Shown in pieces: positions 657 through 39,174 of a DNA stretch of 57,885 nt. A model generated the notes under the pieces. That model was given only the letters and a program-made list of their open reading frames with translations. It was not told the origin of the DNA and made no database searches. Numbering within the stretch: position 1 is the stretch's first letter; the number at the start of each line of letters is the position of its first letter. The position numbers were made by a program, and so were the translations under genes. The stretch covers positions 1-57,885 of the forward strand of contig CAJBMM010000037.1 in the NCBI GenBank assembly GCA_903954185.1, read 5' to 3'. This stretch comes from an uncultured Candidatus Berkelbacteria bacterium. GTDB taxonomy: Bacteria; Patescibacteriota; UBA1384; CAJBMM01.

Positions 657-2573
657 TTATTGTTGTGTTTTATTTATTTTAGGAAGCATTATAAGCAAAA
701 AACTCGCACATACTAAAACCAATAAAAGTATTTGAGACGCATGCATAACATCATCTCCGGTGGCAGCTAAGCCAATGTTAATACCAAGTTTAAATGAGGC
801 GAGCGTATACTGACCGTCGGTACCAACAGATTGGATTGTTACAGTATGATCTCCATTGGGAATATCTGAAGAGGGAGTACAAGACCAATTACCATCGTTA
901 TCGGTAATAGTAGAGCATGTAATAGGATCGGAATGGATTGTGACAGTTACGCTTGAATTTGGCGAAGCAATACCACTAAATGTTGGTCGATGGCCAGTGT
1001 AATAATATTGGCTATATTTCTCATTAAAGTTAATTGTACCCATTTTAAGTAAAGAAAGCGTAGCGCTGGTTGCGGTAACTGAGGTAGATGTCGATGTGGT
1101 AGTAGTTGGCGAGCTGGTGGCGGTAGAAGTTGCTAGTGTTGGAGATGGAGTTGGAGAGGGATCAGTATTATATGTCATACAGCCATAACACGTAGCAGAT
1201 TGTGTATAGTTAGTGACTACAACATCCGCAGTTCCCACAGCGTGTGCTGGAGCAGTGGCTGTGAGTTTTTCAGAAGAAACGAAAGCAATATTAGTAGCTG
1301 CTACTCCACCGATAGTTACGGCGGCAGTAGTTATGCCAGCAGTTGATGTTAATAAATCAACAAAATTTGTGCCATTAATCGTTATAGATTCACCACCTGT
1401 AATATTCTGGGGATTATTTCCTGTTACAGAAGTAATGGTGGGAGCTGCTGTTATACCAAGGTAATCAATAAGAACATCTGCAAACAGTTTATCTCCGGTT
1501 GTAGTCATATGAACTCCATCAATCCAAAGTCCCGCAGCATTGGCTGTTACATACGCGCCAGTAAACTTACTAACTTCAACATAACCATAACCATTTTGGC
1601 GCGCAAGATCTTGAAGCGATGGGAAATATGCACCAACGTCTCCGGCTGGTCCTGTTCGGGTTCCAATAGTCGGAGGAGTCAGAATAATCGGAACCGTTGG
1701 TTTTACCACTCTTATTCTGCCTATTATCGTTTCAATATTGGCTATATAATTGCTAACAGATACAGAGGATATATCATTCGTTCCCAAGGTAATAATTACC
1801 ACACTCGGATTAAGCTGTGTTATCTCGCTTTGCCATAAACCAGCATTTGCCGCTGCCCAATGTGATCCTCTTGAACCGCTCATCCCCAATTTATCAACTT
1901 TAATTCCTCCGGAATTAGCAATATTGCAATCAACACCAAACAAAGTGACACCTGTCGTGCCAGCTGTGTTGAGCGTCATTAGGATAGAGTGCTGTGCAAG
2001 TGTTTGGCCGCCAATATTAATTGTTCCTAGGGCATTTGAAGTATTGACGGTAGAAACTGTTGTCGCACTGCCAGAATCAATTGAATAATTGAACGAGCCT
2101 CCACCCGATTGTTTTAAATAATAAATTGTATAATCAGTACCAGTACAAGTAACACCTTTCGCTGCTGGCGTAGCGACATCAGTCGAATTAGTATGCATAA
2201 TATTAGGGCCTAAACCACGTGCAGCGGAAGAATCAGTCCATGTGCCCACAGATGTTTTTGTTGCATCGGCTAGAGCTATATTATAAGGATAAGAGTCTAC
2301 GGGTACATAACCGGCCCCAGCAAAAGGGTAACTGGAAACTATTTTATTATAGAACTCAAGAGCAACGTGATTTCCTGCCGTCCACGAATCTCCGATATAC
2401 GCTATTGTGCTGTTTGGATTAACTAAAAAACCACAGTTAATATTAGATGGATTGCAATTAGGATAAAGCGATTCACCTGGAATATAGGTAGCCGAATAAA
2501 CTGAAGTTAGAGTAATGAAGAAAAAGGCTACAAAAAAGAAAAATAATAAGCAAAATTTAAAAAATCTATGAAT
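657..2573 (-). CDS. Secreted SGNH/GDSL hydrolase with IPT/TIG domain and LAATG sorting signal; ATT start
   Basis: Predicted esterase/lipase-type hydrolase displayed on the cell surface. From an ATT at 2573 the frame encodes a very hydrophobic signal peptide (residues about 4-27) and then an SGNH domain: GDS with presumed nucleophile Ser63, GTND (Asn266, Asp267) and DGVH (Asp352, His355). An IPT/TIG-like immunoglobulin fold (about 380-470) and a Thr/Ser/Pro linker follow, then the shared Ig-like module, LAATGDD, a hydrophobic helix and a KINK tail. The only canonical in-frame start, a GTG at 2249, would delete the signal peptide and the catalytic serine. No ATG, GTG or TTG lies between the upstream stop (2589-2591) and 2249. 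AAGG at 2583-2580 sits six bases before the ATT. The gene overlaps the end of its upstream neighbour by eight bases, which suggests translational coupling. Confidence 0.85.
   Translation of the reverse strand: MHRFFKFCLLFFFFVAFFFITLTSVYSATYIPGESLYPNCNPSNINCGFLVNPNSTIAYIGDSWTAGNHVALEFYNKIVSSYPFAGAGYVPVDSYPYNIALADATKTSVGTWTDSSAARGLGPNIMHTNSTDVATPAAKGVTCTGTDYTIYYLKQSGGGSFNYSIDSGSATTVSTVNTSNALGTINIGGQTLAQHSILMTLNTAGTTGVTLFGVDCNIANSGGIKVDKLGMSGSRGSHWAAANAGLWQSEITQLNPSVVIITLGTNDISSVSVSNYIANIETIIGRIRVVKPTVPIILTPPTIGTRTGPAGDVGAYFPSLQDLARQNGYGYVEVSKFTGAYVTANAAGLWIDGVHMTTTGDKLFADVLIDYLGITAAPTITSVTGNNPQNITGGESITINGTNFVDLLTSTAGITTAAVTIGGVAATNIAFVSSEKLTATAPAHAVGTADVVVTNYTQSATCYGCMTYNTDPSPTPSPTLATSTATSSPTTTTSTSTSVTATSATLSLLKMGTINFNEKYSQYYYTGHRPTFSGIASPNSSVTVTIHSDPITCSTITDNDGNWSCTPSSDIPNGDHTVTIQSVGTDGQYTLASFKLGINIGLAATGDDVMHASQILLLVLVCASFLLIMLPKINKTQQ
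748..1041 (-). repeat. Copy 1 of the shared C-terminal sorting-module repeat
   Basis: A stretch of about 295 bp encodes the Ig-like module through LAATGDD. It is near-identical at DNA level to copies at 2666, 5096, 7436 and 10018. In this copy and the next the module carries variant residues (SPNSSVTVTIHSDPI) in place of the APNAKVTVTIQSDPI seen in others. The high DNA identity across five otherwise different genes points to recent duplication or gene conversion. Confidence 0.9.
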
Positions 2574-4416
2574 TTTTATCCTTAATTTTTAATTTGTTTC
2601 TTACTAAAAGTATTGCAAAAAATGATGCAGACAGGGTTATTATCAGCCATAAATTGATTTGTGAAACATCATCTCCGGTAGCGGCTAAGCCAATATTAAT
2701 ACCCAGTTTAAATGAGGCGAGCGTATATTGACCGTCGGTACCAACAGATTGAATGGTTACAGTATGATCTCCATTGGGAATGTCTGAGGTGGGAGTACAA
2801 GACCAATTACCAGCGTTATCGGTAATAGTAGAGCATGTAATTGGATCGGAATGGATTGTGACAGTTACGCTTGAATTTGGCGAAGCAATACCACTAAATG
2901 TTGGCCGATGGCCAGTATAATAATACTGGCTATATTTCTCATTAAAGTTAATTGTACCCATTTTTAGTAAAGAAAGTACGGGGGTGGTTTGCGAGGTGAC
3001 GGTAGATGTTGTCTGTACTACTGTTGAAGTTTCTTCTGTTGTGGTAGTTGGCGAAGCGGTAATGGTAGAAGTCGTTGCAGCAGGAGTTGGAATTGCTTCT
3101 GTGGTAGCCGAGGCACTTGCAGATGCATAACCAACACCTTGGGCATTTACACCGCGGACATAAACAGAATACGAGCTGTTAGGGTCAAGTATGTCCTGGG
3201 TCCAGTTGGAGGTTGCTGAGGTAATCGTTGTTAATAAGGTATTGTCAGCCGCATTATAAACTTTGTATCCCGTGGCTCCCGCAACATCATCCCAATCCCA
3301 AGAAATTGATGTTTGCGAGACGGTACTGCTGGTTAAGCCCGTGGGTTGGATTGGCGGTAAATAGGCTGTACCCAACCCTGGGCCTATTGACTCGGCAATG
3401 ACACTATCCATTGTATAACCAGCGCCAATATTTAGCGTTCCCGTTGAACCAGCAAGAGCGGCTACGATGATTGACCCGGTCCTTCTATTGACTACACCGC
3501 CATTAATCACGTTTAGTGTACCCGTGCCAGAGTAACCAACTCGAGGAGTGCCAGCAGTGAAATTTAATTGCGAGCCAGTTCCGGTCACGGTAACTGATCC
3601 ATTACTTCCTGCTAGTCCGCCGATTTGCCAAGGCCCAGCGGCAGTATTAACTACAGCACCATTTGAAATCGTTAATGTGGCAGTACCCGACAGGCCACGA
3701 CCAATATACCCCAACCCACCAGCAATATCAGAATTCCAAACGGTGTTTGCGCCGCCTACCTCAATATTTGCGGTTGTCCCAACATCATAAGCCGCGGAAA
3801 TATTACCCGTGCTAACTGTAGCACCGTTTAAAATATTAAGGTTACCGACACTCCCGGTAAAATTACCCATGCGGACACGCGTATCGCCACTAATGGTCTG
3901 TGTGAGCGAAGATCCAGAACCAGTTACGGTAATTGTTCCATTTCCTGTTGAGGCATTACCAATCACGATCCCGCTGCCGCCTGGGGGGGCAGTAACTGTT
4001 CCGCCATTTGATACATAAAAGGTACCACCGTCCGCTACTAATTGTGTGGCGATAATCACAGAAACGCCACTGACCGTGACTGTCCCCGTATAACCGGGAT
4101 TAGTTTTAAAATATTTAACTGATAAAGCAGAATCAACTGTGGCGCTATTTAAACAATTGCTCACAAAAGTTACGGTATCAGTTGGTCCTGGTATATTAAG
4201 GTTAGCGCTATCGGCACATGCGCCAGCAGAAGTTTTCCAATTGGCTGGATTGCTAGTATTGGAATTGGTAGTACCGCCAACCCAGTAATAAGTTGCGGCG
4301 GCGCGAGCAGGAAGAGGAGTCGCAAAGAAATACACTGCAAATATAAAAGGCGCAGCTAAGAATGTTATAAAACTATAAAACCTTTTATTGGCTATAATAT
4401 GAAGACTATTCATCAT
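2566..4416 (-). CDS. Secreted beta-repeat/FN3 surface protein with LAATG sorting signal
   Basis: A 616-residue surface protein. The N-terminal hydrophobic segment (about 15-38) ends in ARAAA, a signal-peptidase-like site. Residues about 45-350 are Gly/Thr/Asn/Ser-rich repeats of the kind seen in autotransporter passengers and in PEP-CTERM-associated repeat proteins (for example VGNLNILNGATVSTGN), probably a beta-solenoid. A fibronectin type III-like domain follows (about 355-440), then a Thr-rich linker, the shared Ig-like module, LAATGDD, a membrane helix and a basic end (KLKIKDKNS). It begins ATGATG with no Shine-Dalgarno and a promoter -10 only four bases upstream, so it may be translated leaderless. 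It is the first gene of a two-gene unit with the SGNH hydrolase. A role in adhesion or surface coating is inference only. Confidence 0.85.
   Translation of the reverse strand: MMNSLHIIANKRFYSFITFLAAPFIFAVYFFATPLPARAAATYYWVGGTTNSNTSNPANWKTSAGACADSANLNIPGPTDTVTFVSNCLNSATVDSALSVKYFKTNPGYTGTVTVSGVSVIIATQLVADGGTFYVSNGGTVTAPPGGSGIVIGNASTGNGTITVTGSGSSLTQTISGDTRVRMGNFTGSVGNLNILNGATVSTGNISAAYDVGTTANIEVGGANTVWNSDIAGGLGYIGRGLSGTATLTISNGAVVNTAAGPWQIGGLAGSNGSVTVTGTGSQLNFTAGTPRVGYSGTGTLNVINGGVVNRRTGSIIVAALAGSTGTLNIGAGYTMDSVIAESIGPGLGTAYLPPIQPTGLTSSTVSQTSISWDWDDVAGATGYKVYNAADNTLLTTITSATSNWTQDILDPNSSYSVYVRGVNAQGVGYASASASATTEAIPTPAATTSTITASPTTTTEETSTVVQTTSTVTSQTTPVLSLLKMGTINFNEKYSQYYYTGHRPTFSGIASPNSSVTVTIHSDPITCSTITDNAGNWSCTPTSDIPNGDHTVTIQSVGTDGQYTLASFKLGINIGLAATGDDVSQINLWLIITLSASFFAILLVRNKLKIKDKNS
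2666..2960 (-). repeat. Copy 2 of the shared C-terminal sorting-module repeat
   Basis: Second copy of the roughly 295-bp module. It is closest in wording to copy 1, sharing the CSTITDN variant, which suggests these two diverged from each other most recently. Confidence 0.9.
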
Positions 4417-4420
4417 ATAT

Positions 4421-4450
4421 AGTTTATTCTATAACTAGCAAGTTAGTCAA
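4421..4450 (-). promoter_or_regulatory. Promoter of the 4416-657 unit, probably leaderless
   Basis: On the minus strand TTGACT (4450-4445), an 18-base spacer and TAAACT (4426-4421) are followed after four bases by ATGATGAATAG. The expected transcription start falls on or between the two ATGs. The promoter of the 12863 gene has the same layout and the same ATGATGAATAG start, which supports it. Confidence 0.55.
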
Positions 4451-4460
4451 TTGCATAGTG

Positions 4461-5027
4461 CTAATTTGGAATCGCTTTAACAACAATTCTTTTTAAAAGC
4501 GTTTCGTCGGAACATGTATAGATAATCAGTGCTCCATCATTAGTTGGGTTTAGAATTGAAATATCATCTTTGCTCACCTCAAAAATTGAGTCTACTGTGT
4601 AAAGATATTTCACCCCATCCCAATAGATAGCCAGAGCATCTCCATTTTTTAACTTATCCAAATTATACAAGGTGGTACGATTGGGAGGTAAATATTTAAA
4701 TCGATGACCTGCAATAACTACACTTGTAGTACCAACTTGACCAGCCTGAAGCCAAACCCCCTCTTGATTATCTAATACTCCTACTTCATCACCCTCAACA
4801 ATTTGAGAGTCTACATCTATTAAATGAATAACAAGCCTGCGACCGTCTGGAATCTTTTCACTTTCTAATATTTTAGTTTGATCAACGTTCCTCTTCACTG
4901 TAAAATGCTCAACGTTGTAGAATACTCTTGGCAATATCGGTAATAAAATAAATAATAATGAAATTAAAATAATAATAACCAAAATGATTTCTATAATACG
5001 ATTTTTAGTTAGTTTTAATTTTTTCAT
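4461..5027 (-). CDS. Sortase (class D/E-like transpeptidase), single-pass membrane
   Basis: A 188-residue sortase that cleaves sorting signals of secreted proteins and attaches them to the envelope. It has an N-terminal membrane anchor (residues 11-36), then the sortase beta-barrel. The expected catalytic residues are visible: His108 in VIAGHRF, Cys172 in IIYTCSDE and Arg180 in LLKRIVV. Length and motif wording fit class D/E-type enzymes rather than class A. The start at 5027 overlaps the end of the upstream substrate gene by 23 bases, so it is the last gene of the 12863-4461 operon. Five genes around it encode proteins ending in LAATGDD, which makes these its obvious substrates; LAATG replacing LPxTG is inferred as its recognition motif. 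The final nucleophile (peptidoglycan, pilin or other) is unknown. Confidence 0.9.
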   Translation of the reverse strand: MKKLKLTKNRIIEIILVIIILISLLFILLPILPRVFYNVEHFTVKRNVDQTKILESEKIPDGRRLVIHLIDVDSQIVEGDEVGVLDNQEGVWLQAGQVGTTSVVIAGHRFKYLPPNRTTLYNLDKLKNGDALAIYWDGVKYLYTVDSIFEVSKDDISILNPTNDGALIIYTCSDETLLKRIVVKAIPN

Positions 5028-7335
5028 ACTTAGTCCTAAACAATAATATGGTTATCGCTATTAATAATAAACTTAATATCTGTGATATATGCATAACATC
5101 ATCTCCGGTGGCAGCCAAGCCAATGTTAATACCAAGTTTAAATGAGGCGAGCGCATATTGACCGTCGGTACCAACAGATTGGATTGTTACAGTATGATCT
5201 CCATTGGGAATGTCTGTAGTTGGAGTGCAAGACCAGTTGCCGTTACCATCTGCGGTAGTGGTACAAGTAATTGGGTCAGATTGAATAGTAACAGTAACTT
5301 TAGCATTAGGTGGAGCAATGCCAGTAAATTTTGGTCGGTGGCCTGTGTAGTAGTAGCGGTTGTATTTAGAGTTAAAATTTATTGTACCCAACTTTACAAG
5401 CGTAAGAGCGGCAAGACTGTTAGATGAAGTGCTTTGAACAACGTCACTTGTTGTTTGAGTAGCATCACTAGAAGATGAGGCAGAAACAACCTCTAAATTT
5501 ATTGTTTTGCTATAAGTATCTGAAATTTGACCAATCGCATCCTTGTACTTTACATAAACTGTTTTGGCACCATTGCCATCACCAAGAGTCCAACTTTTAG
5601 TAGTAACGAAGTCTTCCCACTCTACACCACTAAATGACGCGTCGTTACTAATTTGCATTTGACTCACTTCGCCAAAATTAGAAATAGAGCTTAATGTTAA
5701 AGTAACTACCCTTGTTGGTGTGGAATTTGCACCATCTGCTATATCAATACCCCCACTCGCAAATGCTGCATAACTTACCGGGTCGGCCGCGACAGCAGAA
5801 AATTCAGATGTTGAGCCAAGGGTATTCGTAGCTGTTGCGGTAATTTTATCTATGGCTGTTGGGGTAGCGCCAGTTATCGGTACTGCCAACGCAATATCAT
5901 TTCCAATTTCTGTAGTTGTTACCGAACCAATAAATGTCTCTCCTGGTCCGCGGCCAGAAGAATGAATTGTAGTATTATTAAAGAATTCCAGTGTATATGG
6001 GGCTTCGTCCGCTTTAAAATCTAAATTAGCTTTAACTAATAATTTACCGTCGCTAGATAACCCCATTTTAGTAATTACGGGATAATTCATTCGATCATTA
6101 TAACTTGTATCTATATCACCTGCATCATTGGGGGTCGCTGTGCCGTATACTAAATCAATTGGTGTTCCTGTAACGTTATGTATGCTATTTTGACTAAAAC
6201 GATTCCATTTGGAATTTCCATTTTGCAAGGCAATAGCAGCATCTGATAGGTGCGCAAAAGTATTGCGAGCAATTGTCCAACCAGTAGCTACCCCATTGTC
6301 GGTAACTCCTGGCTCTACAAAACTGCTCTGCAAATCATCATTAAAAGCATTTGTGCCAAAATAGTTTCCTTGGATAATTCCATCAGATCCGGATATTCTT
6401 ACTAAAGTCCGCTTGTTAATATTGATACAAGCAAAAATATTACTTTCCTCAGTGTCAGAAACTCCATCGAGATTGGTTCCAATTCTTGTTCTATCGCCAT
6501 TTGCCTGCAGAAAATAACGGTACATCCCACCCGTTCCACATGTTCTGCTGGTTTTATCTACGCCAAAGTAGTTTCCAGAAACAATATTGTCTGAATCTGC
6601 CGCCGCAACAAATTGAAAAGCACCACCGCTTTGATTTGTTCCCCACATTTGAATTAAATTACGTTCGCCGTTGTCGTTTACGCCATCGCCGTTTGTGCCA
6701 AATATATTTGCTGTAGACCCAGTTTGCACGGTCGTAGTTCCAAATGCACTAGACGTACTTCCGCTAATGTTGGTTGCAATAAAATTGCCTTCTATCCAAT
6801 TATTACTAGATGCAGTAAATTGCATCCCCCCGGAAGTAGATGACCCCATATTTAAACCAGCAAGATGATTATTGCCAACATTAATAGTAAATAATGGACC
6901 GCCGGTTATAGAAACACGTATTTTCAAAACCGTATTAAGTGTTTCTCCAAATGCCGCTGTATTTCTTGAAGCGCCAGCTTGCGAATAACCATTAATAAAT
7001 ACACCTGCTGTATCGCTTAAGATGTAATTTGCGTTTGTTGAAAGCAAAAAATATCCTTGAACATCGCCTGCAGGGGGAATATAGCCGCCGTCAGATTCGG
7101 GAATATTAAAATTAATAGTATCGGCACCAACATTAGCATTTGCTGCTGCTACCGCCTCTCGCAAAGAACAATCGGCATTACAACTTCCATCGTTTGTATC
7201 TGCAGTTTTTGTAACAGTAAAGGTTGTGGAGCTAGCTTTAGTGAAATTTTGCACAAATAAAGAAGGCACTATAACAGCTAGAATAACTATTAATATTGAG
7301 AACTCTATATATTTATTGACTGCAAAATACCTCAT
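5005..7335 (-). CDS. Secreted CSLREA-type parallel beta-helix protein with LAATG sorting signal
   Basis: A 776-residue surface protein. A signal segment (about 10-35) is followed by NADCSLREAVAAANA (about 55-70), the CSLREA motif that commonly precedes right-handed parallel beta-helices. Repeats such as WIEGNFIATN and GNYFGVD support a beta-helix to about residue 430. Ig-like segments, a Ser/Thr linker, the shared module, LAATGDD, a membrane helix and a basic tail (RTKYEKIKTN) follow. The ATG at 7335 directly abuts the TAA of the upstream gene. The sortase gene begins inside its last codons. Such proteins are often carbohydrate-active or adhesive, but no catalytic residues are recognisable. 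Confidence 0.85.
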   Translation of the reverse strand: MRYFAVNKYIEFSILIVILAVIVPSLFVQNFTKASSTTFTVTKTADTNDGSCNADCSLREAVAAANANVGADTINFNIPESDGGYIPPAGDVQGYFLLSTNANYILSDTAGVFINGYSQAGASRNTAAFGETLNTVLKIRVSITGGPLFTINVGNNHLAGLNMGSSTSGGMQFTASSNNWIEGNFIATNISGSTSSAFGTTTVQTGSTANIFGTNGDGVNDNGERNLIQMWGTNQSGGAFQFVAAADSDNIVSGNYFGVDKTSRTCGTGGMYRYFLQANGDRTRIGTNLDGVSDTEESNIFACININKRTLVRISGSDGIIQGNYFGTNAFNDDLQSSFVEPGVTDNGVATGWTIARNTFAHLSDAAIALQNGNSKWNRFSQNSIHNVTGTPIDLVYGTATPNDAGDIDTSYNDRMNYPVITKMGLSSDGKLLVKANLDFKADEAPYTLEFFNNTTIHSSGRGPGETFIGSVTTTEIGNDIALAVPITGATPTAIDKITATATNTLGSTSEFSAVAADPVSYAAFASGGIDIADGANSTPTRVVTLTLSSISNFGEVSQMQISNDASFSGVEWEDFVTTKSWTLGDGNGAKTVYVKYKDAIGQISDTYSKTINLEVVSASSSSDATQTTSDVVQSTSSNSLAALTLVKLGTINFNSKYNRYYYTGHRPKFTGIAPPNAKVTVTIQSDPITCTTTADGNGNWSCTPTTDIPNGDHTVTIQSVGTDGQYALASFKLGINIGLAATGDDVMHISQILSLLLIAITILLFRTKYEKIKTN
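5096..5389 (-). repeat. Copy 3 of the shared C-terminal sorting-module repeat
   Basis: Third copy. It carries the variant reading KYNRYYYTGHRPKF and a single YALASF instead of YTLASF, and is otherwise nearly identical to copies 4 and 5. Confidence 0.9.
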
Positions 7336-9909
7336 TTAGTTAACCCGCTTTACCGCATCACCTTTGTTAATTAAGACAAAACCACCTAATAAAAGTGAGA
7401 TTAATACTATGAACAATATTGTATTAATTTTTTCAACATCATCTCCGGTGGCAGCTAAGCCAATGTTAATACCAAGTTTAAATGACGCGAGCGTATACTG
7501 ACCGTCGGTACCAACAGATTGGATTGTTACAGTATGATCTCCATTGGGAATATCTGTGGTTGGAGTGCAAGACCAGTTGCCGTTACCATCTGCGGTAGTG
7601 GTACAAGTAATTGGGTCAGATTGTATAGTAACAGTAACTTTAGCATTAGGTGCAGCAATGCCAGTAAATTTTGGTCGGTGACCTGTGTAGTAGTAATGAC
7701 CGTATTTAGAGTTGAAGTTAATAGTTCCTAATTTAAGTAAGGTTAATGTTGTCGTTTCACCATTCGAGTTAGTAATGGCACTAATGTTTCCTGCCAAATC
7801 TTTAAACTGTACATATACTACTCTACTAGAGTTAGAGAATGTCCATGTTTTTGAAGTTGAATAGTTTTCCCAAGATGCCTGGTTTAGAGCATCAATTGTT
7901 TCACCTAATCTCATGTAGCCCACTCCACTTGAAACACCACTACTAGTAGGGTCTGAAGCAGAGATATTTAAGGTGGCTGTGTTTAAAGATAGATTACCAG
8001 TGGAATCTAGTTTAATTGTACCGTTGGGAGCAGTGGTATCAATATTTAAGGTACTGGTACTACTAGTAGTAGTGTTTCCTGCTACATCATATGCCACAAC
8101 ATACCAAGAATGAGCTCCTTCAGAGATCCCAGCGGCTGGCGTGTAGGTGGTGGCAGTAGCAGATATATTATCTGCTAACAATGAATCGTCTAGATATAAT
8201 TGGTATTTAGCTAAACCAGATGCTGCATCGCTAGAGGCATCCCAGCTAAATGTGGGCATTGTCACATTAGTGGTGGCATTAGGTGAAGGTGATAAGGAAG
8301 AAAAAGATGAAGGAATGGCTGTATCTACAGTTACTGTCTTATTAATTGTCGTGCTATTTCCTGCAACATCATACGCAATAACCTCTATTGTGTGATCGCC
8401 TACGGCTAAACCAGAAATGGCATATGGCGAAACAGCAACAAGAGCAGCACTGCCATCTACAGAAACTGTGTAGTAGCTTATTCCGCTTAAATTATCAGAT
8501 GTTGCAAAAGTAATCGAGGTGTCTTGATGATTAAAATACGAGCCGTCATTTAGTCCAATAATAAAATCTAATGGACTAACTGAATCTGGTAACCAATTAG
8601 AATTATTATTCGAATTATTACTTGCCGGCCCGTAATAGATAGTAGATGAATTTACATTATTAGAATCTTTAACATCTACGTATTTAATGTCACGAGTACC
8701 TTGTGGATTAATTGAAAACTGAGTATCGGTAACAGATGATCGTAAAGATAATAAATTATTCGCCGCACCCTTAAGAGTTAGAGCCCCCTGGATAGTGGTA
8801 GTGGTTGAAGCTGGAAATGTTAATGTAGCTGCCGAAGTAACTGTTTTACTTAAATTATTAAAGGTAAAAGCACCGGCAATAGTTTGATTCGTACCAGTAA
8901 GTAGCATTGTGCCATTATTGTGATTAAATGTTCCGCCAGTATATGAAAGATTTCCAGAGACCTGCGTATTCCCCGAAGAAGCGGTGATTGAACCAGTGCT
9001 GCTAATCCCGAAATTTAAAAGCCGTGTTGCGCCAGCATTTGGCAGGATGATTGAACCTGAAGAAACTGCCAAATAAATATTATCAAAAGTTGTATAACTG
9101 GAAAAATCTAAATTTGCACCCTGTACATAAAATTCTTTTGTATTACCATAATAACCAGTAAACCCCTCAAACCCTGCGCCTGCATAATAATAAATCCGAT
9201 TATATTGGTTAAAAGTACCTGTACCTTGAATTTTACCAGATAATCCTATTCTGCCATAAGGAACACCAGCAGTCGAAGTGCCAACCGGCAAAGTACAAGT
9301 GCTTCCAATTGTTTTAAGAACGCTGCCCGACGTCCATCTTAATCTGACTTGATTAAATACGATATTGTTACAATTAATTGTTGATCCTACAGATCCATCA
9401 ATATAAAAAATTCCATTATTCGCATCAAAAGTACCACCATTTACCTGAAATCCTAAGGCAAAGTAGCTTGAGGCAGATGAAGCGATAAAGTTCGCCCCCA
9501 CATTCATGGTAAAATTACCATTAATATCTAACAGCTCATCGGTAGCATTAAAAGTACCAGCCGATTGGGTAAAAGTGCCAGTTGTTTGAAAAGATGCATT
9601 AAGTGTTAGCGTTCCGCCGTACCCTGCATTAATAGAGAGAGAGGCAACATTATACAAGCCTGCGTTTCTTAAATCAATCCAATTTTGATCGAGCACTGAA
9701 TCTGCGCTAGACGTGCCATCAAAAACAACGGTGTCGCCACTTACCGGACAAGCACTTGCCGACCAATTTGCGCATGTACTCCATAAGCTATCACCGCCTA
9801 AACCAGTCCAAGTTCTTGTAGCCGCTGCGTTAACAATCGGCACTCTAGAAAGCAACGCAAAGCTTAGAGCATAAAGTAAAAGTATTAATTTAACTTGAAA
9901 ATTCTTCAT
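7336..9909 (-). CDS. Secreted beta-repeat and multi-Ig surface protein with LAATG sorting signal
   Basis: An 857-residue protein. The signal peptide (about 5-28) ends at NAAATRTW. The N-terminal half is Gly/Thr/Ser/Asn-rich with TFTQSAGTFNA and NYTGGTFNHNNGTM type repeats, probably a beta-solenoid. From about 455 there are consecutive bacterial Ig-like domains, including two with the VDGS...VGDHTIEVIAYDVAGN pattern. The shared module, LAATGDD, helix and basic end follow. Its last 400 residues or so closely match the end of the next upstream gene. It overlaps that gene by four bases (ATGA) and abuts the downstream gene with no gap, so the four genes are one tightly packed operon. Adhesion or scaffolding is plausible; no enzyme motif was seen. 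Confidence 0.85.
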   Translation of the reverse strand: MKNFQVKLILLLYALSFALLSRVPIVNAAATRTWTGLGGDSLWSTCANWSASACPVSGDTVVFDGTSSADSVLDQNWIDLRNAGLYNVASLSINAGYGGTLTLNASFQTTGTFTQSAGTFNATDELLDINGNFTMNVGANFIASSASSYFALGFQVNGGTFDANNGIFYIDGSVGSTINCNNIVFNQVRLRWTSGSVLKTIGSTCTLPVGTSTAGVPYGRIGLSGKIQGTGTFNQYNRIYYYAGAGFEGFTGYYGNTKEFYVQGANLDFSSYTTFDNIYLAVSSGSIILPNAGATRLLNFGISSTGSITASSGNTQVSGNLSYTGGTFNHNNGTMLLTGTNQTIAGAFTFNNLSKTVTSAATLTFPASTTTTIQGALTLKGAANNLLSLRSSVTDTQFSINPQGTRDIKYVDVKDSNNVNSSTIYYGPASNNSNNNSNWLPDSVSPLDFIIGLNDGSYFNHQDTSITFATSDNLSGISYYTVSVDGSAALVAVSPYAISGLAVGDHTIEVIAYDVAGNSTTINKTVTVDTAIPSSFSSLSPSPNATTNVTMPTFSWDASSDAASGLAKYQLYLDDSLLADNISATATTYTPAAGISEGAHSWYVVAYDVAGNTTTSSTSTLNIDTTAPNGTIKLDSTGNLSLNTATLNISASDPTSSGVSSGVGYMRLGETIDALNQASWENYSTSKTWTFSNSSRVVYVQFKDLAGNISAITNSNGETTTLTLLKLGTINFNSKYGHYYYTGHRPKFTGIAAPNAKVTVTIQSDPITCTTTADGNGNWSCTPTTDIPNGDHTVTIQSVGTDGQYTLASFKLGINIGLAATGDDVEKINTILFIVLISLLLGGFVLINKGDAVKRVN
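7436..8275 (-). repeat. Copy 4 of the sorting module within an 840-bp duplicated block
   Basis: The module (7436-7731) and about 540 bp upstream of it in the reading direction, encoding the last Ig-like domains, recur at 10018-10858 with high DNA identity. The duplicated part therefore extends well beyond the sorting module in these two neighbouring genes. Confidence 0.85.
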
Positions 9910-12863
9910 TTAGCTTTTCCAAATATAATATTTTTAAGCAAGCTGTGATTTGTAAGTAAAACTAAAGTTAACCCAGTAAATGTTAGCAAAAGGGCAAAAA
10001 CCAATTCAACGCGTTTTACATCATCTCCGGTGGCAGCTAAGCCAATGTTAATACCAAGTTTAAATGAGGCTAAAGTATACTGACCGTCGGTGCCAACAGA
10101 TTGGATTGTTACAGTATGATCTCCATTGGGAATATCTGTGGTTGGAGTGCAAGACCAGTTGCCGTTACCATCTGCGGTAGTGGTACAAGTAATTGGGTCA
10201 GATTGTATAGTAACTACTACTTTAGAGTTAGCAGAGGCGATACCTGTAAATGTAGGGCGGTGTCCTGTGTAATAATAATGGCCGTATTTTTCATTAAAGT
10301 TAATAGTTCCTAATTTAAGTAAGGTTAATGTTGTCGTTTCACCGTTTGAGCTGGTAATGGCACTAATGTTTCCTGCTAAGTCTTTAAATTGAATGTAAAC
10401 AATACGGCTAGAATTGGCAAATGTCCATGTTTTTGAAGTTGAATAGTTTTCCCAAGATGCTTGATTTATGGCTTCTATCGATTCACCTAATCTCATGTAG
10501 CCCACTCCACTTGAAACACCACTACTAGCAGGGTCTGAGGCAGAGATATTAAGTGTTGCGGTATTGAGAGAAAGTGTACCAGTTGAATCTAGTTTAATTG
10601 TACCGTTAGGGGCTGTGGTATCAATATTTAAGGTACTGGTACTACTAGTAGTAGTGTTTCCTGCTACATCAGTTGCCACAACATACCAAGAGTGTGTGCC
10701 CTCAGATAATGCTGTGGAAGGTGTATAGGTAGTAGCAGAAGATATAATATTGTCTGCAAGTAATGTACCGTCCATATATATCTGGTACTTAGATAAACCA
10801 GATGTTGCATCGCTAGAGGCATCCCAGCTAAATGTTGGAGCGGTAATGTTCGTAAATGTATTAGATGAGGGTGATGAAGTGGAGAATGAAGAAGGCGCAG
10901 TGTTGTCCACAGTATAGTTAAAAGAGCTTGTGATGCCAGTATTAGTAAAGTTGGTTGGCAAAGAATCGAATGTAGTAGTTATGTCTGTTGTGATTTTATA
11001 TGCAGCTGCCTGCACAGAAGCGCTCTTTAATCCAGGCAAGGAATCTGCTGGAACAGTGTAGGTTCCTGTCCAGGTAGTATTAGTACCGTCGGTAGAAGCA
11101 TAGGTTAAAATAACTTTATCGCCATTTGGCATAACTGCTTGTACAATATTATTATCGGTGGTCGCCGGGTCATTTTTTAACATAGAAGAAGTGGCTGTTA
11201 TTTCTATAGTGCTTCCTGCACGAGTATAAGTTGGAGAAGAGGAAGTGAGCGTCCAATCCTTCATTGAAGTGATAGACGCTACTCCACCACGATACGAACT
11301 AAAATATAAATGCTTATTTGCACCAATTGCGACATTCTGCCCTGAGGAAAAAGATGAATTTTGCCATTTTTTTGAACCATCGGTAGCATCGATTCCAAAG
11401 CCGGGAGAATAATAAATCATATTGTTTCCGGCATAAAGCATATTGTCGGTGCCAGCATTGTTAGAATAAGTATCGGTAGATGTCATCTGAACACTGCCGT
11501 CTGTAGTTGAATATGCCCGAAGTTTAAAATCGCCAATAGCGGGATAGTTAGCTATTAAGTAATAAAGAGAGTCATTTCTAGATAAATTCCCACTGGTATA
11601 ATTTTTAAGATTATCGCTAGTGGCAAATTTAAGGGTTCCGTCTGAGTTCATACCGTAAAACCCAAGCGCACCGCCTAATGCTGGAGAGTAAGCACTACCA
11701 TCCGCTGCAACAGATGGAGCTCTAAGTGTTCCCTGAGTTGCAGCGCCAATCATAGCGCGCAAACGTCCATCAGGATACGAGCTACTAAATTTGCGGCTGT
11801 CATGAACTGAATAAATAATTCCAGTATTTGGATCTATACTATCGCCACCAGAACGATTATTAATATTAACGCTTGTATATTTTAGCGATCCATCAGAATT
11901 GTAAATACAGCTATTGTTTCTGCCTGTAGCATAAACAGAACCGTCAACTCCGATGTTTACCGCTCCTTTCGAGCTAGTTGTGAGATTAGTACAAAGATTC
12001 GACCACAATTGCGTTCCAGTATTCTTATCCAAAGCTGTTACATAGTGTGTCCCAGTCATAAAATAGATCGAACCATTTTGAGAAAGCGCCGCAAACGATG
12101 GCGCAGACGTTGCAACACTCCAGCGCAACACGCCACTTGAGGTGTAAGACATATACGCCGAATCAGTTCCGAAATATAGATTACCGTCACCATCGACAAG
12201 TATGCCGCTATAACTAACGTTTGCCCCCGATGCAGTTGGCACACTCCATTCTAAGGTCGAATATTCTGGCCCTAATAGCGCAGTATTGCCCGAAGATCGC
12301 ATATCAATTTGGTATTTTGGATTAGGGGCACTCGTATCAAGCCCGTCGTCTGTTGTTGTGATGGAAAAAGTTGCAGATGTTGTTGGGCCGTCAATGTTAA
12401 CGTCTACCGATGTTTTTGTTTCAACCGATCCTGTATATGTTGAGGCGGAAGTAGAGTTGTTGGTGATGTTGTCTAGTACAATGTATTTTGCTCCAGCAGC
12501 TGAAGCGGTTCCTGTTGCATCGCGAGTAATTGTAATTACCTGTCCTGCTATGGAAACCGATCTACCACCATCAATTCCACTCCAAGAGTCAAAAGTAACT
12601 CCAGACACCCCAAAACCATCTGGAAAAGTAATAATAATCTTAGCATTGTTTGGTGTAGAAGAAACTGTAGTAAAATTAATTGTATATTTACCCGTTGTGG
12701 AAATGTCGGAATTCCAAGGAACAATTGTTACAGAAGTTAAAGATGCTGCGTTAACTGGAGTAAGTTGAATAAATAATGAAGTGCACAGCAAAGTAAGAGC
12801 AAAAAGTATATTAAAACAAATTGGCTGACCTATTTTTCTGAAAATAATATAACTATTCATCAT
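9906..12863 (-). CDS. Secreted PQQ-like beta-propeller/Ig protein with LAATG sorting signal
   Basis: A 985-residue surface protein and first gene of the substrate-sortase operon. After a signal segment (about 15-39) comes an SLH/pilus-like beta domain (about 40-170). Residues about 190-560 contain beta-propeller blades of the PQQ/quinoprotein type, for example NGSIYFMTGTHYVTALDKNT, DGSVYATGRNN and IDATDGSKKWQNSS. Ig-like domains follow, then the shared module, LAATGDD, helix and basic end (FGKAK). It begins ATGATG without Shine-Dalgarno. No PQQ-binding or catalytic residues can be claimed; propellers of this kind often mediate binding. Confidence 0.85.
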   Translation of the reverse strand: MMNSYIIFRKIGQPICFNILFALTLLCTSLFIQLTPVNAASLTSVTIVPWNSDISTTGKYTINFTTVSSTPNNAKIIITFPDGFGVSGVTFDSWSGIDGGRSVSIAGQVITITRDATGTASAAGAKYIVLDNITNNSTSASTYTGSVETKTSVDVNIDGPTTSATFSITTTDDGLDTSAPNPKYQIDMRSSGNTALLGPEYSTLEWSVPTASGANVSYSGILVDGDGNLYFGTDSAYMSYTSSGVLRWSVATSAPSFAALSQNGSIYFMTGTHYVTALDKNTGTQLWSNLCTNLTTSSKGAVNIGVDGSVYATGRNNSCIYNSDGSLKYTSVNINNRSGGDSIDPNTGIIYSVHDSRKFSSSYPDGRLRAMIGAATQGTLRAPSVAADGSAYSPALGGALGFYGMNSDGTLKFATSDNLKNYTSGNLSRNDSLYYLIANYPAIGDFKLRAYSTTDGSVQMTSTDTYSNNAGTDNMLYAGNNMIYYSPGFGIDATDGSKKWQNSSFSSGQNVAIGANKHLYFSSYRGGVASITSMKDWTLTSSSPTYTRAGSTIEITATSSMLKNDPATTDNNIVQAVMPNGDKVILTYASTDGTNTTWTGTYTVPADSLPGLKSASVQAAAYKITTDITTTFDSLPTNFTNTGITSSFNYTVDNTAPSSFSTSSPSSNTFTNITAPTFSWDASSDATSGLSKYQIYMDGTLLADNIISSATTYTPSTALSEGTHSWYVVATDVAGNTTTSSTSTLNIDTTAPNGTIKLDSTGTLSLNTATLNISASDPASSGVSSGVGYMRLGESIEAINQASWENYSTSKTWTFANSSRIVYIQFKDLAGNISAITSSNGETTTLTLLKLGTINFNEKYGHYYYTGHRPTFTGIASANSKVVVTIQSDPITCTTTADGNGNWSCTPTTDIPNGDHTVTIQSVGTDGQYTLASFKLGINIGLAATGDDVKRVELVFALLLTFTGLTLVLLTNHSLLKNIIFGKAK
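10018..10858 (-). repeat. Copy 5 of the sorting module, second copy of the 840-bp block
   Basis: Direct repeat of 7436-8275 in the same orientation, 2.58 kb apart. The module proper is 10018-10313. Recombination between the two blocks would fuse the two genes in frame. Confidence 0.85.
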
Positions 12864-13028: not shown

Positions 13029-16000
13029 CTAACGAATTATATTAAGCACGCTTTTAGTAGAACTGGACTCAAACCAATCGTCCCCGCTAAGACTACAATC
13101 TACACGATGAACGCCCAAGGTAATGCCCTTCGGTGGAGTGTAACGGATAGTCGCCCAACCGTCAGCATCTGTCCAGGCGCCTCCTATGTAATTGCCGTCT
13201 ACCGAGAATGTTAAGTAGGCATAATCGAAAGGAGGATTACCGCTCATTAAATATCTCGCTAATGCCCTAATTTCGACTTCCTCTCCAGCCGCAGCGGATC
13301 TGTTGCCAGAAAATAGATATGTTTTCATTTTACTAACAGTGAAGGTGGCTGTATTCTGGGATGACTTAAACTGGCTATCTCCAAGCCATTTTACCGTAAT
13401 GTTACTTTGCTGGTTGGGATAAAACTCTAAACCTTGGGTGGAAAGCTGAGCTTTCCCTTCGCCGTCAGTGACAGATGAGCCGACAAGTTTATCACCTAAC
13501 CAAAAATTTAATATCTTCCCCGAGATTGGCTGGCTATTTGAAGATTTGTAAAGATACCCCTTAAGAATTGTCGTGTTACCGTATTGAATATCGCGATTCG
13601 GTACATATATTTTGCTATTTTCGGAAGTACTTGTATATACCTCATCGGACTCAATACTTTCTTGGCCATTTCTCACAGCAGTAACAACATAAAAATAATT
13701 TGTTTTTGCGGTTAAACCAGTGTGAGTGTATGGAGTTGGTATATTTTCAATCTTCTGACCAGTCTTTTTATCAACTCCCTTGTTTTCACTCCAATATAAA
13801 TTATAGGAGGTTGCGCCGTTAACAGGGTTCCACTTTAAACTCACACTATTTTCGCTAGCGGTTATTGAAACATTTTGTGGAGCATTTGGTGCAGTGTTTT
13901 GTGGTGGTTTGATGTAAAAACGACTGGAGTATGAGTCATGCAGATTCATGGGCCATTCGTTATTAACTGAAGGTCCGTTCGTTTTTATTACGTTAATAAG
14001 CATTTTATGCACAACAGAATTATACGTAATAAACACAATCTCATTTTTGCCATCAGCGTCTATGTCACCTGCGGCACTACCGGTACTGTAAAATTCGCCA
14101 CTCGATATTTTGGGGTACCCATTAATAGCATGGCCAGTACCATCATAAATATTATAACTCGATGTCCATGCTGAGCCCTCTGCATAACCCCAATACCCAG
14201 TTGTGAAAATATTTTGACGGCCATCATTTTTCGCACCAATTATCGCCATGTCTTCACGATCATTTACAGAGAGAAATGGCCTGCATTCGTTCATGTAACC
14301 GTATGTATCATAAATTAGCACTCCACTTGGGGTATAAAACATTGGGCACTGCTCGGATGCAAACGCTAGCTCTGGTTTACCGTCATTATTAATATCGCCC
14401 ACAGCTATGCTTTCCGTATTATAGAAATTATTGATATCATGTAGAGCAGGTTGCCAGTTATATAGTTCTTGGCCATTGTTTGCCAATACGATTATCCTTC
14501 CAACAGCATTCGAGGTGTATGGCCACTGCCTCAATGTCCTAATAATAATCTCTTTATTGCCATCGTTATCAATATCTGCCACAACCAAAGCAGATGCACT
14601 TATTTGCATTCTTAATGGCCAGCCTGGTAATTGTCGGCCTTCCATGTCTACAACTGACACCATAGCATTTAGCTGGTTTTCGGTGTTAATGCGTTGGCTT
14701 AGCAAGATTATTTCGTTTTTCCCGTCGCCATTAATATCTCCAACTGATGGATAAAGCCCATTAGTTAACCCACCATAATTTAATCCCGGGATTTTTCTGG
14801 AAACAATTTTTTCCCCAGTATAACTCCATATAGCCGCATCTATGAATGGATTAGTATTATCGTTGTAGTTCATCATGCTAAAAGTAACAATGTCTAGTAC
14901 GCCATCAGCATTCATATCTGCCAACAAAACGGTGCGAGTGTTAACATACTTCGGCCAGCCCGATAACAAAATGCCATCCGAGTTATAGACATATAGACTA
15001 TTGCCATTTCCGGCCACAATTTCTATTTTACTATCACCATTAATATCACCCGCAAGAAACGGTTCAATAGAAAAGTTAGTGGGACCGACTCTAACAGGCC
15101 ATCCAGGCAACTCATTTCCATCTCCAGAAAAAGCGTGAATTAAGCCGTTACGATAAACTAAGACATCTGATTTCCCATCTGAATTAATATCTGCAACCAG
15201 CGGCGATTTAACATCAAATTCATAATCCCCGTCACTCATACTTAAAGAAATAGGCCAACCATTTTCCATATCAGCATCTATGTAAACCTGAATTGATGAT
15301 TCTCTTTTAATATTAGCGTTTACAGTGAGCTTTAAGAGATATGGGCCAGACTTAATACCGGGAATAAGTGACGGCGTCCATTTACCCAAAACCCCCATAT
15401 TTACAGTTCTCACTCCATCAGCATCCAGTGTAATGCCCGTAGATTGCCAACCTTCTTTGCAGTCACGGGTGCGGCCAACGCGATTATAAAAACCATCCAT
15501 TAAATTTACCTTGCACCAAGAGAGATAATAATTTTTAAACCCCTCACCCGACGCAACGCCCTTGATTTCAATTTCATTATTCACCATATGAATAATCTCT
15601 GCGTCTTTGCCGTTTCCAAATGGTAGCGGGCTTGTTATGATTGCATGATTGACCCGCACTAGGGCATTATCTATGTTTGTTCCCGTATCAGAAAGAACAA
15701 TTAGCCTCAAATAAATATCAACGCCATCGTTAATGCGAGCTATATTCCACTTTGCAAGCTCACCATTGGTTACAGGGGTGCTAGATTCAGCTATTAATTC
15801 CCATCCAGAGGGATTAGAAGAATAAGTGTAATATAATTGATAATTAGTAAACCCTTTTCCATACGCAGAACCAATAATACTAGTGTTATTTTCAGAAATC
15901 AGCCCATTTGTCGAGATACTTGAAGTAGGTGGTGGATTAGCAGCAGATACCGCTTTGTATGCGTCCACGCGCCCAAATCCTTGGGTATTAAGATCATACT

Positions 16001-17495
16001 CGCTGTTTGTACCCGGAATTTTTAGCTTTTGCGCTGTCATGCGTAAATCTGATTTTATATTATCTGGCGTCCAATTTGGATGGGCTTGTTTTACCAATGC
16101 TGCCACACCGCTTACAATTGGGGTAGCCATACTTGTACCAGCCGAAAGAATATGATTATCATCTACACATTTGACGTAACGTCCTTGCTCTACCTTACTA
16201 GCAATTCTCGAGGCACATATTAGCGCTCCCGGAGCTACAACATCGGGCTTATTTAATAATTGAATGGTTTCACCCCATCTTACCGGACCTCTTGAACTAA
16301 AGCTAGCAATTTGATCTTTTCTCGGGTCACTTTCTCCCCAATACGATCCTGAATAGTCTTTCTTAAATGTAGCCCCAACTGTAATTGCTTTTCGCGCTGA
16401 TCCAGGCGATCCAACAGAATTATCCGATGGGCCAGAATTACCAGCGGCCACTACTGCCACAATGCCATTTCCAACCACATTATCAATTGCCTGACTAAGC
16501 GGATCGTCTGGGTCACCATTGCCACCAAGACTAAGACTAATAATATCAAGCTTGTCACTATAGTTCCCGTCATTATTAGGGTCTAATGATGCTTCTATCC
16601 CAGATATTACCCCTGACCAATACCCCGACCCACTATCGTCTAAAACTTTATAAGCAAAAAGAATCGCGTCCGGAGCAACTCCTTTTACATTACCATTAGA
16701 GGCAACAGTTCCGGCAACATGCGTACCATGTCCACTTCCGTCCATCGGATTATTATCACCATTGACAAAATCGTATCCTCCCGCCACCTTTGCGCATGCA
16801 CGATTTATGAATTGATCAGTTGTGCAACCGCCAAAATCACCATGGGTATAATCTATCCCCGTATCGATAATCCCAACTTTTACCCCCACGCCCGTAACTG
16901 TATTATTATTTTGGTCTTTAACCTCACGCCACACCCTATCGGCACCAATCAGTGGCACAGAATCCATTAAAGTCGCCGCAACTTCACGATTTGGATAAAC
17001 TTTCTCTACCTGGGGTAATCTAGAAATTTGACTTGCCTGCGTATGCGTTAACTGTTTTATTAAAATCGCATTAACAGCGTTGCCCCAGCTTACAGCAACC
17101 GTAGGTAATGATTGATCTTTATTATTTTTATCTTGACTGATTTTAATACCAATAGTGTCCGTTTTTGCATAAAAACTATCCCTTTCGGCCTGAATGACGG
17201 ATTTTTGTTTGATTATATTTGTACTCATTTGTGCTGAAGATAACACAGTGGTTGATACCGCGGCTGTCGAGGCTTTTGACAAAGGATCTGCTTTAAATTC
17301 CACAATGTAACCATCAAATTTATCCGAAAGCATGGAACCTTGTACAGCGTTTGCAGCACCCTCTGAGGCACTGCTGCCAAAAACCATTCTCCACACAATA
17401 ACTGCCACAACTGCAATTATTAGTACAAAAATAGCCGCAAATATAATATTTTTACGGCCGAATCGATAGCTTATCCACAACCAAATTTTTTCCAT
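13029..17495 (-). CDS. Membrane-anchored subtilisin-like serine protease (S8) with FG-GAP repeats, FN3 and Ig-like domains
   Basis: A 1488-residue cell-surface protease. There is an N-terminal membrane helix (about 17-38) and a propeptide-like region (about 55-175). The S8 domain has Asp211 (GIIDTGIDYTHGDFGG), His256 (GHGTHVAG), oxyanion Asn353 (AAGNSGP) and Ser455 (AGTSMATPIVSG), so it should be active. From about 720 to 1170 there are repeated calcium-binding FG-GAP/VCBS-like repeats (ADINSDGKSDVLV, GDINGDSKIEIV, GDINNDGKPELAF), probably a beta-propeller. An FN3-like domain (about 1190-1280) and Ig-like domains follow. AGGAG precedes the ATG. It has no LAATG signal. Location next to the surface proteins suggests it processes them or degrades external protein. 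Its C-terminus is cut short relative to an in-frame tail (12975-13028). Confidence 0.93.
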   Translation of the reverse strand: MEKIWLWISYRFGRKNIIFAAIFVLIIAVVAVIVWRMVFGSSASEGAANAVQGSMLSDKFDGYIVEFKADPLSKASTAAVSTTVLSSAQMSTNIIKQKSVIQAERDSFYAKTDTIGIKISQDKNNKDQSLPTVAVSWGNAVNAILIKQLTHTQASQISRLPQVEKVYPNREVAATLMDSVPLIGADRVWREVKDQNNNTVTGVGVKVGIIDTGIDYTHGDFGGCTTDQFINRACAKVAGGYDFVNGDNNPMDGSGHGTHVAGTVASNGNVKGVAPDAILFAYKVLDDSGSGYWSGVISGIEASLDPNNDGNYSDKLDIISLSLGGNGDPDDPLSQAIDNVVGNGIVAVVAAGNSGPSDNSVGSPGSARKAITVGATFKKDYSGSYWGESDPRKDQIASFSSRGPVRWGETIQLLNKPDVVAPGALICASRIASKVEQGRYVKCVDDNHILSAGTSMATPIVSGVAALVKQAHPNWTPDNIKSDLRMTAQKLKIPGTNSEYDLNTQGFGRVDAYKAVSAANPPPTSSISTNGLISENNTSIIGSAYGKGFTNYQLYYTYSSNPSGWELIAESSTPVTNGELAKWNIARINDGVDIYLRLIVLSDTGTNIDNALVRVNHAIITSPLPFGNGKDAEIIHMVNNEIEIKGVASGEGFKNYYLSWCKVNLMDGFYNRVGRTRDCKEGWQSTGITLDADGVRTVNMGVLGKWTPSLIPGIKSGPYLLKLTVNANIKRESSIQVYIDADMENGWPISLSMSDGDYEFDVKSPLVADINSDGKSDVLVYRNGLIHAFSGDGNELPGWPVRVGPTNFSIEPFLAGDINGDSKIEIVAGNGNSLYVYNSDGILLSGWPKYVNTRTVLLADMNADGVLDIVTFSMMNYNDNTNPFIDAAIWSYTGEKIVSRKIPGLNYGGLTNGLYPSVGDINGDGKNEIILLSQRINTENQLNAMVSVVDMEGRQLPGWPLRMQISASALVVADIDNDGNKEIIIRTLRQWPYTSNAVGRIIVLANNGQELYNWQPALHDINNFYNTESIAVGDINNDGKPELAFASEQCPMFYTPSGVLIYDTYGYMNECRPFLSVNDREDMAIIGAKNDGRQNIFTTGYWGYAEGSAWTSSYNIYDGTGHAINGYPKISSGEFYSTGSAAGDIDADGKNEIVFITYNSVVHKMLINVIKTNGPSVNNEWPMNLHDSYSSRFYIKPPQNTAPNAPQNVSITASENSVSLKWNPVNGATSYNLYWSENKGVDKKTGQKIENIPTPYTHTGLTAKTNYFYVVTAVRNGQESIESDEVYTSTSENSKIYVPNRDIQYGNTTILKGYLYKSSNSQPISGKILNFWLGDKLVGSSVTDGEGKAQLSTQGLEFYPNQQSNITVKWLGDSQFKSSQNTATFTVSKMKTYLFSGNRSAAAGEEVEIRALARYLMSGNPPFDYAYLTFSVDGNYIGGAWTDADGWATIRYTPPKGITLGVHRVDCSLSGDDWFESSSTKSVLNIIR

Positions 17496-38388: not shown

Positions 38389-39174
38389 ATGATACCCAGA
38401 AGACGTACCGGATTTACCCTGATCGAACTACTGGTGGTTATCGCGATCATCGCCATTCTGGCGGCGATCCTCTTCCCCGTCTTTGCGCAGGCCCGCGAGC
38501 AGGCACGCAAGACCAGTTGCCTCAGCAACATGAAGCAGCTTGGGCTTGGCGTGCTGATGTACGTGCAAGACTACGATCAGCGCTCACCCCACGGCTGGGC
38601 CGACGACTGCGGATTTACCGTCCCCAGCGGCTGGCCGTATTGGAGCTGGGGCTGCGGCCCCGAAGTCTCCTGGCGCTGGATGATCTCGCCGTACGTGAAG
38701 AATGGCGGGCTTTACACCTGCCCCAGTTTTGAGCAGCCGGATGAGCCCCTATGGCGCTATATCCGCGATGAGGTCGAGGCCAAGATCCACCGCAGCTACG
38801 CTCTGAACTACAGCATGGCTCACTGGTGGTGCCCCGGCAACAAGATGGACAACTGCATCCGGCCTGCAAGTTCTATCATGATCACCGAGAGCCGCGAGTG
38901 GAATGCTGACTGGGCGATGGGCATGGTGTCGGGCCGCGCATGGTTCGACGGCTCTAAGGGCCTCATGACCACGCACAGCGGCGTCAGCAACTTCACCTTC
39001 TACGACGGCCACGCCAAGGCCATGCGGTTGAAGGCGACGTTCGGCAACCTGAGTTACTGCGAGTCCTGTACACCAAGCGACGACCAGCTTTGGGCTTGGT
39101 GGAACGGCGGCGACTGGGAGCACCCCAGCTGGCTGCGCAACCAGATCGCCAACATGGCGCCAGAGTACCAGTAA
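38389..39174 (+). CDS. Prepilin-like H-X9-DG domain protein (type II pseudopilin), GC-rich and foreign-looking
   Basis: A 261-residue protein with a class III prepilin leader: basic MIPRRR, then [10 protein letters not shown] with the conserved Glu at +5 of the mature form, and a hydrophobic alpha-helix. A globular part with several Trp and Cys follows. A C-terminal [12 protein letters not shown] motif matches the prepilin-type processing-associated H-X9-DG domain. This DUF1559-like family is expanded in Planctomycetes, Verrucomicrobia and Armatimonadetes and is not expected in a CPR genome. Codon usage is GC-rich, unlike its neighbours. A strong Shine-Dalgarno (AAAGGAGG), consensus promoter and terminator make it a stand-alone unit. 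No other pilus gene is near. Confidence 0.9.

Follow-up and report, generated by a model that had tools for sequence, protein, structure and literature searches.

Sortase substrates are exported by the Sec pathway and arrested in the membrane by a C-terminal helix and a basic tail; the sortase then forms a thioacyl intermediate at the threonine of the sorting signal, which is resolved by the amine of lipid II. The closest described enzymes belong to classes E and D. For class E, LAxTG is the established sorting signal, and a tyrosine in the beta3/beta4 loop of SrtE1 from Streptomyces coelicolor (Tyr229) has been proposed to favour alanine at the second position of this signal (PMC5148588). The class D enzyme CpSrtD of C. 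perfringens prefers LPQTGS and fails to process LAETG (PMC4498605). Sortases of the Candidate Phyla Radiation (CPR) are already on record as well (PMC6744442, PMC4736985, PMC7143001). For instance, Meheust et al. 2019 report the sortase family fam000526 as widespread in the CPR; the passage on this family names neither substrates nor a sorting signal (PMC6744442). In our literature search, we found no paper that names the sorting signal of patescibacterial sortases and no report of five unlike substrates with a common recombining terminal cassette.

Here, we analysed a stretch of 57,885 nucleotides (the window) that constitutes contig C37 of a patescibacterial genome of the Berkelbacteria class (998 kb, 96.6% complete, 43 contigs). 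Six genes are tightly clustered on the minus strand (657-12863), namely one sortase gene and five genes for candidate substrates. Read 5' to 3' on this strand, the order is substrate 5 (9906-12863), substrate 4 (7336-9909), substrate 3 (5005-7335), the sortase (4461-5027), substrate 2 (2566-4416) and substrate 1 (open frame 657-2588). Substrates 5 and 4 overlap by 4 bp, substrates 4 and 3 abut (0 bp), and the sortase gene reaches 23 bp into substrate 3. A gap of 44 bp separates the sortase from substrate 2, which overlaps substrate 1 by at least 8 bp.

According to Pfam and NCBIfam, the N-terminal parts of the five substrates are unlike one another. Substrate 1 contains an SGNH/GDSL esterase and a TIG domain, substrate 2 contains repeats of the T5SS/PEP-CTERM type and fn3, and substrate 3 contains a CSLREA N-terminal domain. 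Substrate 4 consists of Big_13/OmpL47-like domains, and substrate 5 combines a PQQ/BamB-like propeller with Big_13. All five begin with a hydrophobic, signal-peptide-like segment. A preliminary description of this DNA had proposed five architecturally different secreted proteins with a sortase gene among them in operon overlap, and the gene models agree with it on both points.

The start of substrate 1 is unusual. When called from a GTG at 2249, the gene is truncated, and its signal peptide is encoded upstream of that start. Ahead of the signal peptide there is no ATG, GTG or TTG; the only plausible starts are ATA or, as the likely one, an ATT at 2571-2573, which has an AAGGA just upstream (2579-2583, minus strand) in the region that overlaps the preceding gene. 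A rare, translationally coupled non-AUG start or an error in the sequence would account for this. The gene immediately upstream of the cluster (13029-17495, minus strand) encodes a subtilase that contains FG-GAP, fn3 and Ig domains, has a hydrophobic segment near the N-terminus and lacks a sorting signal.

Base composition gave no signal of horizontal transfer for the cluster, as its GC content (0.38-0.44) is like that of much of the window. Scans for consensus promoters and terminators found about as many sites as in shuffled sequence. Elsewhere in the window, we observed a DUF1559/N-methyl prepilin-like gene (38389-39174, plus strand) with a GC content of 0.50, compared to about 0.38-0.40 around it. 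DUF1559 proteins are typically found in Planctomycetes and Armatimonadetes, not in Patescibacteria, and this gene is possibly a transfer or an assembly chimera. An adenylosuccinate-lyase-like gene (PF00206; 28459-29763, minus strand) lies in the stretch with the highest GC content of the window (0.515).

The five substrates have a common end. A 104-residue Ig-like module (Big_13, PF19077) leads into LAATGDDV, which is followed by a membrane helix and a tail rich in lysine and arginine. All five C-termini thus have the layout of a cell-wall sorting signal, in which an L-x-x-T-G-like motif precedes a hydrophobic helix and a basic tail. On the minus strand, the module and its LAATGDD are encoded at 747-1058 and 750-770 in substrate 1, 2665-2976 and 2668-2688 in substrate 2, 5095-5406 and 5098-5118 in substrate 3, 7435-7746 and 7438-7458 in substrate 4, and 10017-10328 and 10020-10040 in substrate 5. 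The Pfam model Gram_pos_anchor (PF00746) has no match anywhere in the genome at E <= 1. A nearly identical end including helix and tail had been described for the five proteins; the likeness is confirmed as far as GDDV and stops there. The helices and tails are unrelated, with the DNA past GDDV at background similarity (about 50% in a forced global alignment), and the one exception is a short MHxSQIL match in two of the five tails.

In the complete 998 kb, the LAATGDD-coding pattern occurs five times, always in the cluster, and the reversed-pattern control gave no occurrence. Five further sites encode L[AV]ATG. Those on contigs C2, C6, C30 and C31 were rejected as sorting signals, as they are either internal to a protein or part of short, unconvincing frames, and only the site on contig C12 (within C12:12807-13190) is a C-terminal signal. 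It ends a sixth, diverged module copy as LVATGSR, in an NHL-repeat protein with no sortase alongside. The copy has 52% identity to the module, and its DNA is only about 63% identical. Outside the cluster, the genome thus has this ending only as one diverged copy, and LAATGDD itself is confined to the cluster. In locus L053 (C12 11054-14954), the gene of the NHL-repeat protein is arranged tail-to-tail with a large serine recombinase and possibly belongs to a mobile segment. When the module alignment was searched against a collection of genome contigs, no relative was found, and within the class we obtained only generic Ig matches. The module is thus not traceable outside its source genome.

Comparing the module copies at silent sites, we observed two distinct parts. 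Over codons 1-66, copies from substrates 1 and 2 differ from those of substrates 3, 4 and 5 by 26-29 silent differences per pair, compared to 1-11 over the last 38 codons (Fisher p between 6e-8 and 0.009 for the six pairs). The switch in density is abrupt at codon 66. The homogenised parts correspond to 747-860, 2665-2778, 5095-5208, 7435-7548 and 10017-10130 in substrates 1 to 5. This mosaic indicates that the ~114 bp that end with GDDV have recently recombined among the genes, by gene conversion or by cassette swapping, and it favours the earlier proposal of a portable display cassette. A short-read assembly could misjoin tracts of 114 bp, but the small differences between the copies argue against a simple collapse. 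As the last 38 codons recombined recently, the five copies of LAATGDD are not independent evidence for a signal.

The sortase has 188 amino acids and one N-terminal membrane helix. It matches PF04203 clearly (E 1.3e-17, 64.1 bits, cut-off 26.6) and passes TIGR01076 only just (39.5 bits, cut-off 39.35). The catalytic residues that had been read from the sequence are present: His108 (codon 4704-4706), Cys172 (4512-4514) and Arg180 (4488-4490, all on the minus strand) are invariant in 12 relatives, as are Gly90 and Trp92. The His and Cys motifs align with those of CpSrtD (4d70), which is the solved structure closest by sequence (E 7e-9). A structure prediction from the single sequence had a mean pLDDT of 47 and was not used. 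In the tree of its subfamily, no branch is longer than that of this enzyme (2.04); it is without the RPxxxTPDxGGN stretch and has TCSD where most relatives have TCTP.

When compared to the described classes, the window sortase shares features with two of them and scores far under the cut-offs of both. As in the SrtE1 system (class E, PMC5148588), a His-Cys-Arg enzyme is found together with LAxTG signals, which have alanine at the second position and are followed by a C-terminal helix and a basic tail. This class E feature is apparent from the gene context, with LAATG in five operon partners and LAxTG beside five relatives. Unlike the class E enzymes of Actinobacteria, the window sortase is encoded inside an operon of substrates in a patescibacterial host and reaches 22.4 of the 160 bits of the class E model NF033747. 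Furthermore, the tyrosine of the class E beta3/beta4 loop is absent, and Trp92 takes its place in the alignment; the CpSrtD residue at this position is Phe92. The window sortase resembles CpSrtD (class D, PMC4498605) in being short and in having no class C lid. In contrast to CpSrtD with its preference for LPQTGS, it remains far under the class D cut-offs (NF033746, 37.1 vs 165 bits; NF058671, 42 vs 140 bits).

Related sortases in other Patescibacteria provide evidence from outside the recombining cluster. Among 60 relatives, the window sortase has its strongest matches in genomes G056 (E 4e-23) and G044 (E 2e-22), with the next at 6e-12, and a contig search with a three-row sortase alignment retrieved these two genomes only. 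A profile from the two best matches drew further members across the phylum. Close members of the subfamily occur in 31 loci that we surveyed, where the adjacent gene is often one for a large protein with a C-terminal motif and helix. LAxTG occurs beside the sortase in G056 (LAETG, DUF11 repeats), G385 (LAATG, 2750 amino acids, DUF11), G404 (LAPTG), G439 (LAQTG) and G409 (LADTG). Other motifs at this place are LPETG (G447 and G448), LPKSG (G369), LPAAG (G346), LSETG (G410) and LPDTN (G234), and several loci of the subfamily have no adjacent substrate.

LAxTG with a helix was present in 5 of 59 adjacent ORFs compared to none of 247 others (p = 2.3e-4). When only ORFs with a single C-terminal helix are considered, a motif was found in 8 of 13 that adjoin a sortase and in none of 24 elsewhere (p = 3e-5). 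Both tests are to be read with the caveats that the test was defined only after the first examples had been noticed, that loci of the same genus are not fully independent and that ORFs were called mechanically. The DUF11 proteins of G056 and G385 are unrelated to the substrates in the window, and the common element is thus the signal and not the protein. The search of relatives for the same ending recovered LAxTG and LPxTG beside related sortases and did not recover the module. This comparison supports the earlier reading of LAATG as the recognition site.

Signals with alanine and proline are mixed within clades, as G439 (LAQTG) groups with G447 and G448 (LPETG), and G409 (LADTG) with G410 (LSETG); the deep branches are poorly supported. 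This mixing suggests that the second position of the signal is permissive in this subfamily. We dropped the class E tyrosine as the cause of alanine at this position, as the subfamily has tryptophan throughout, whatever the neighbouring motif. Since tryptophan occurs beside LA and LP signals alike, alanine recognition would work differently here, if LAATG is cut. In this locus and its relatives, the rule that links alanine recognition to the class E tyrosine apparently does not apply. In another class, loci of the family f43 (L102, L104, L105, L108 and L109) have a sortase divergent beside a small secreted protein with LPVAAG, LPESAG or IPQAAG and a helix. These loci are another sortase/signal pair, with AAG or SAG in place of TG.

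We consider it highly probable that the sortase of this cluster is a dedicated accessory enzyme, which cuts LAAT|G and attaches five surface proteins to the envelope of this patescibacterium. The motif, helix and basic tail occur in five genes that are clustered tightly with the sortase, and related sortases appear to pair with unrelated LAxTG/LPxTG proteins in other genomes. Points against this reading are the long branch and deviating motifs of the window sortase, the failure of CpSrtD to process LAETG, the tryptophan in place of the class E tyrosine, and the loci of the subfamily with no substrate alongside. Alternatively, the five proteins may be anchored by a different sortase, and the window sortase may act elsewhere, for example in pilus-like cross-linking of the substrates to each other. 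The genome does encode a second sortase on contig C41 (L054, C41:8073-8247), which is cut off by the contig end and lies beside mreB, and the same arrangement is present in class relatives G001, G009 and G010. The NCBIfam models of both class C and class D match the window sortase weakly, which leaves room for such a role. However, the gene of the window sortase lies within the operon of the substrates, and beside related sortases the motif is found in the neighbouring gene. Furthermore, the class C (pilus) model NF033745 reaches 35.4 vs 160 bits, no DP[WFY] of the class C D-P-[WFY] lid is found in the 188 amino acids, including the N-terminal part, and a domain search revealed no pilin-type domain in the five substrates. 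We thus regard this alternative as unlikely. The C41 sortase is probably the housekeeping enzyme, which would make the window sortase an accessory one that is dedicated to its substrates.

It is also conceivable that the C-terminal helix is a plain membrane anchor with no sortase processing, and that LAATGDD is conserved only through recent copying. The motif indeed lies inside the homogenised tract. Yet the diverged C12 copy retains L-x-ATG at the same place despite its low DNA identity, and LAxTG occupies the same position in unrelated proteins beside related sortases. In addition, conservation extends only up to GDDV and the helices themselves are unconserved. This explanation is therefore very improbable. 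Under the preferred reading of a dedicated accessory sortase, N-terminal signal peptides would direct the export of the five pre-proteins, and the helix and basic tail would retain them in the membrane. The sortase, itself membrane-bound and co-expressed, would then cut LAAT|G using Cys172, aided by His108 and Arg180, and transfer each substrate to an amine of the envelope, most likely of lipid II/peptidoglycan. A gene for a penicillin-binding-protein transpeptidase in this genome makes peptidoglycan a plausible acceptor. The Ig-like module would serve as a common stalk, and recombination has transferred copies of its distal 38 codons between the five genes. In this sequence of steps, cleavage, acceptor and stalk function are inferred.

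More broadly, Patescibacteria might possess a separate family of sortases that are linked to their substrates (G-[IVFA]-W ... HR ... YTC type) and accept alanine, proline or serine at the second position although they lack the tyrosine of class E. In this lineage, the sorting end would then have become a recombining cassette that mounts new N-terminal functions on the cell surface. We offer this wider proposal tentatively. To our knowledge, the attachment of proteins to the surface of Patescibacteria, and hence their contact with hosts, is poorly known. L[AP]xTG beside a sortase is a specific candidate signal that emerges from this locus and its relatives, together with a list of candidate surface proteins.
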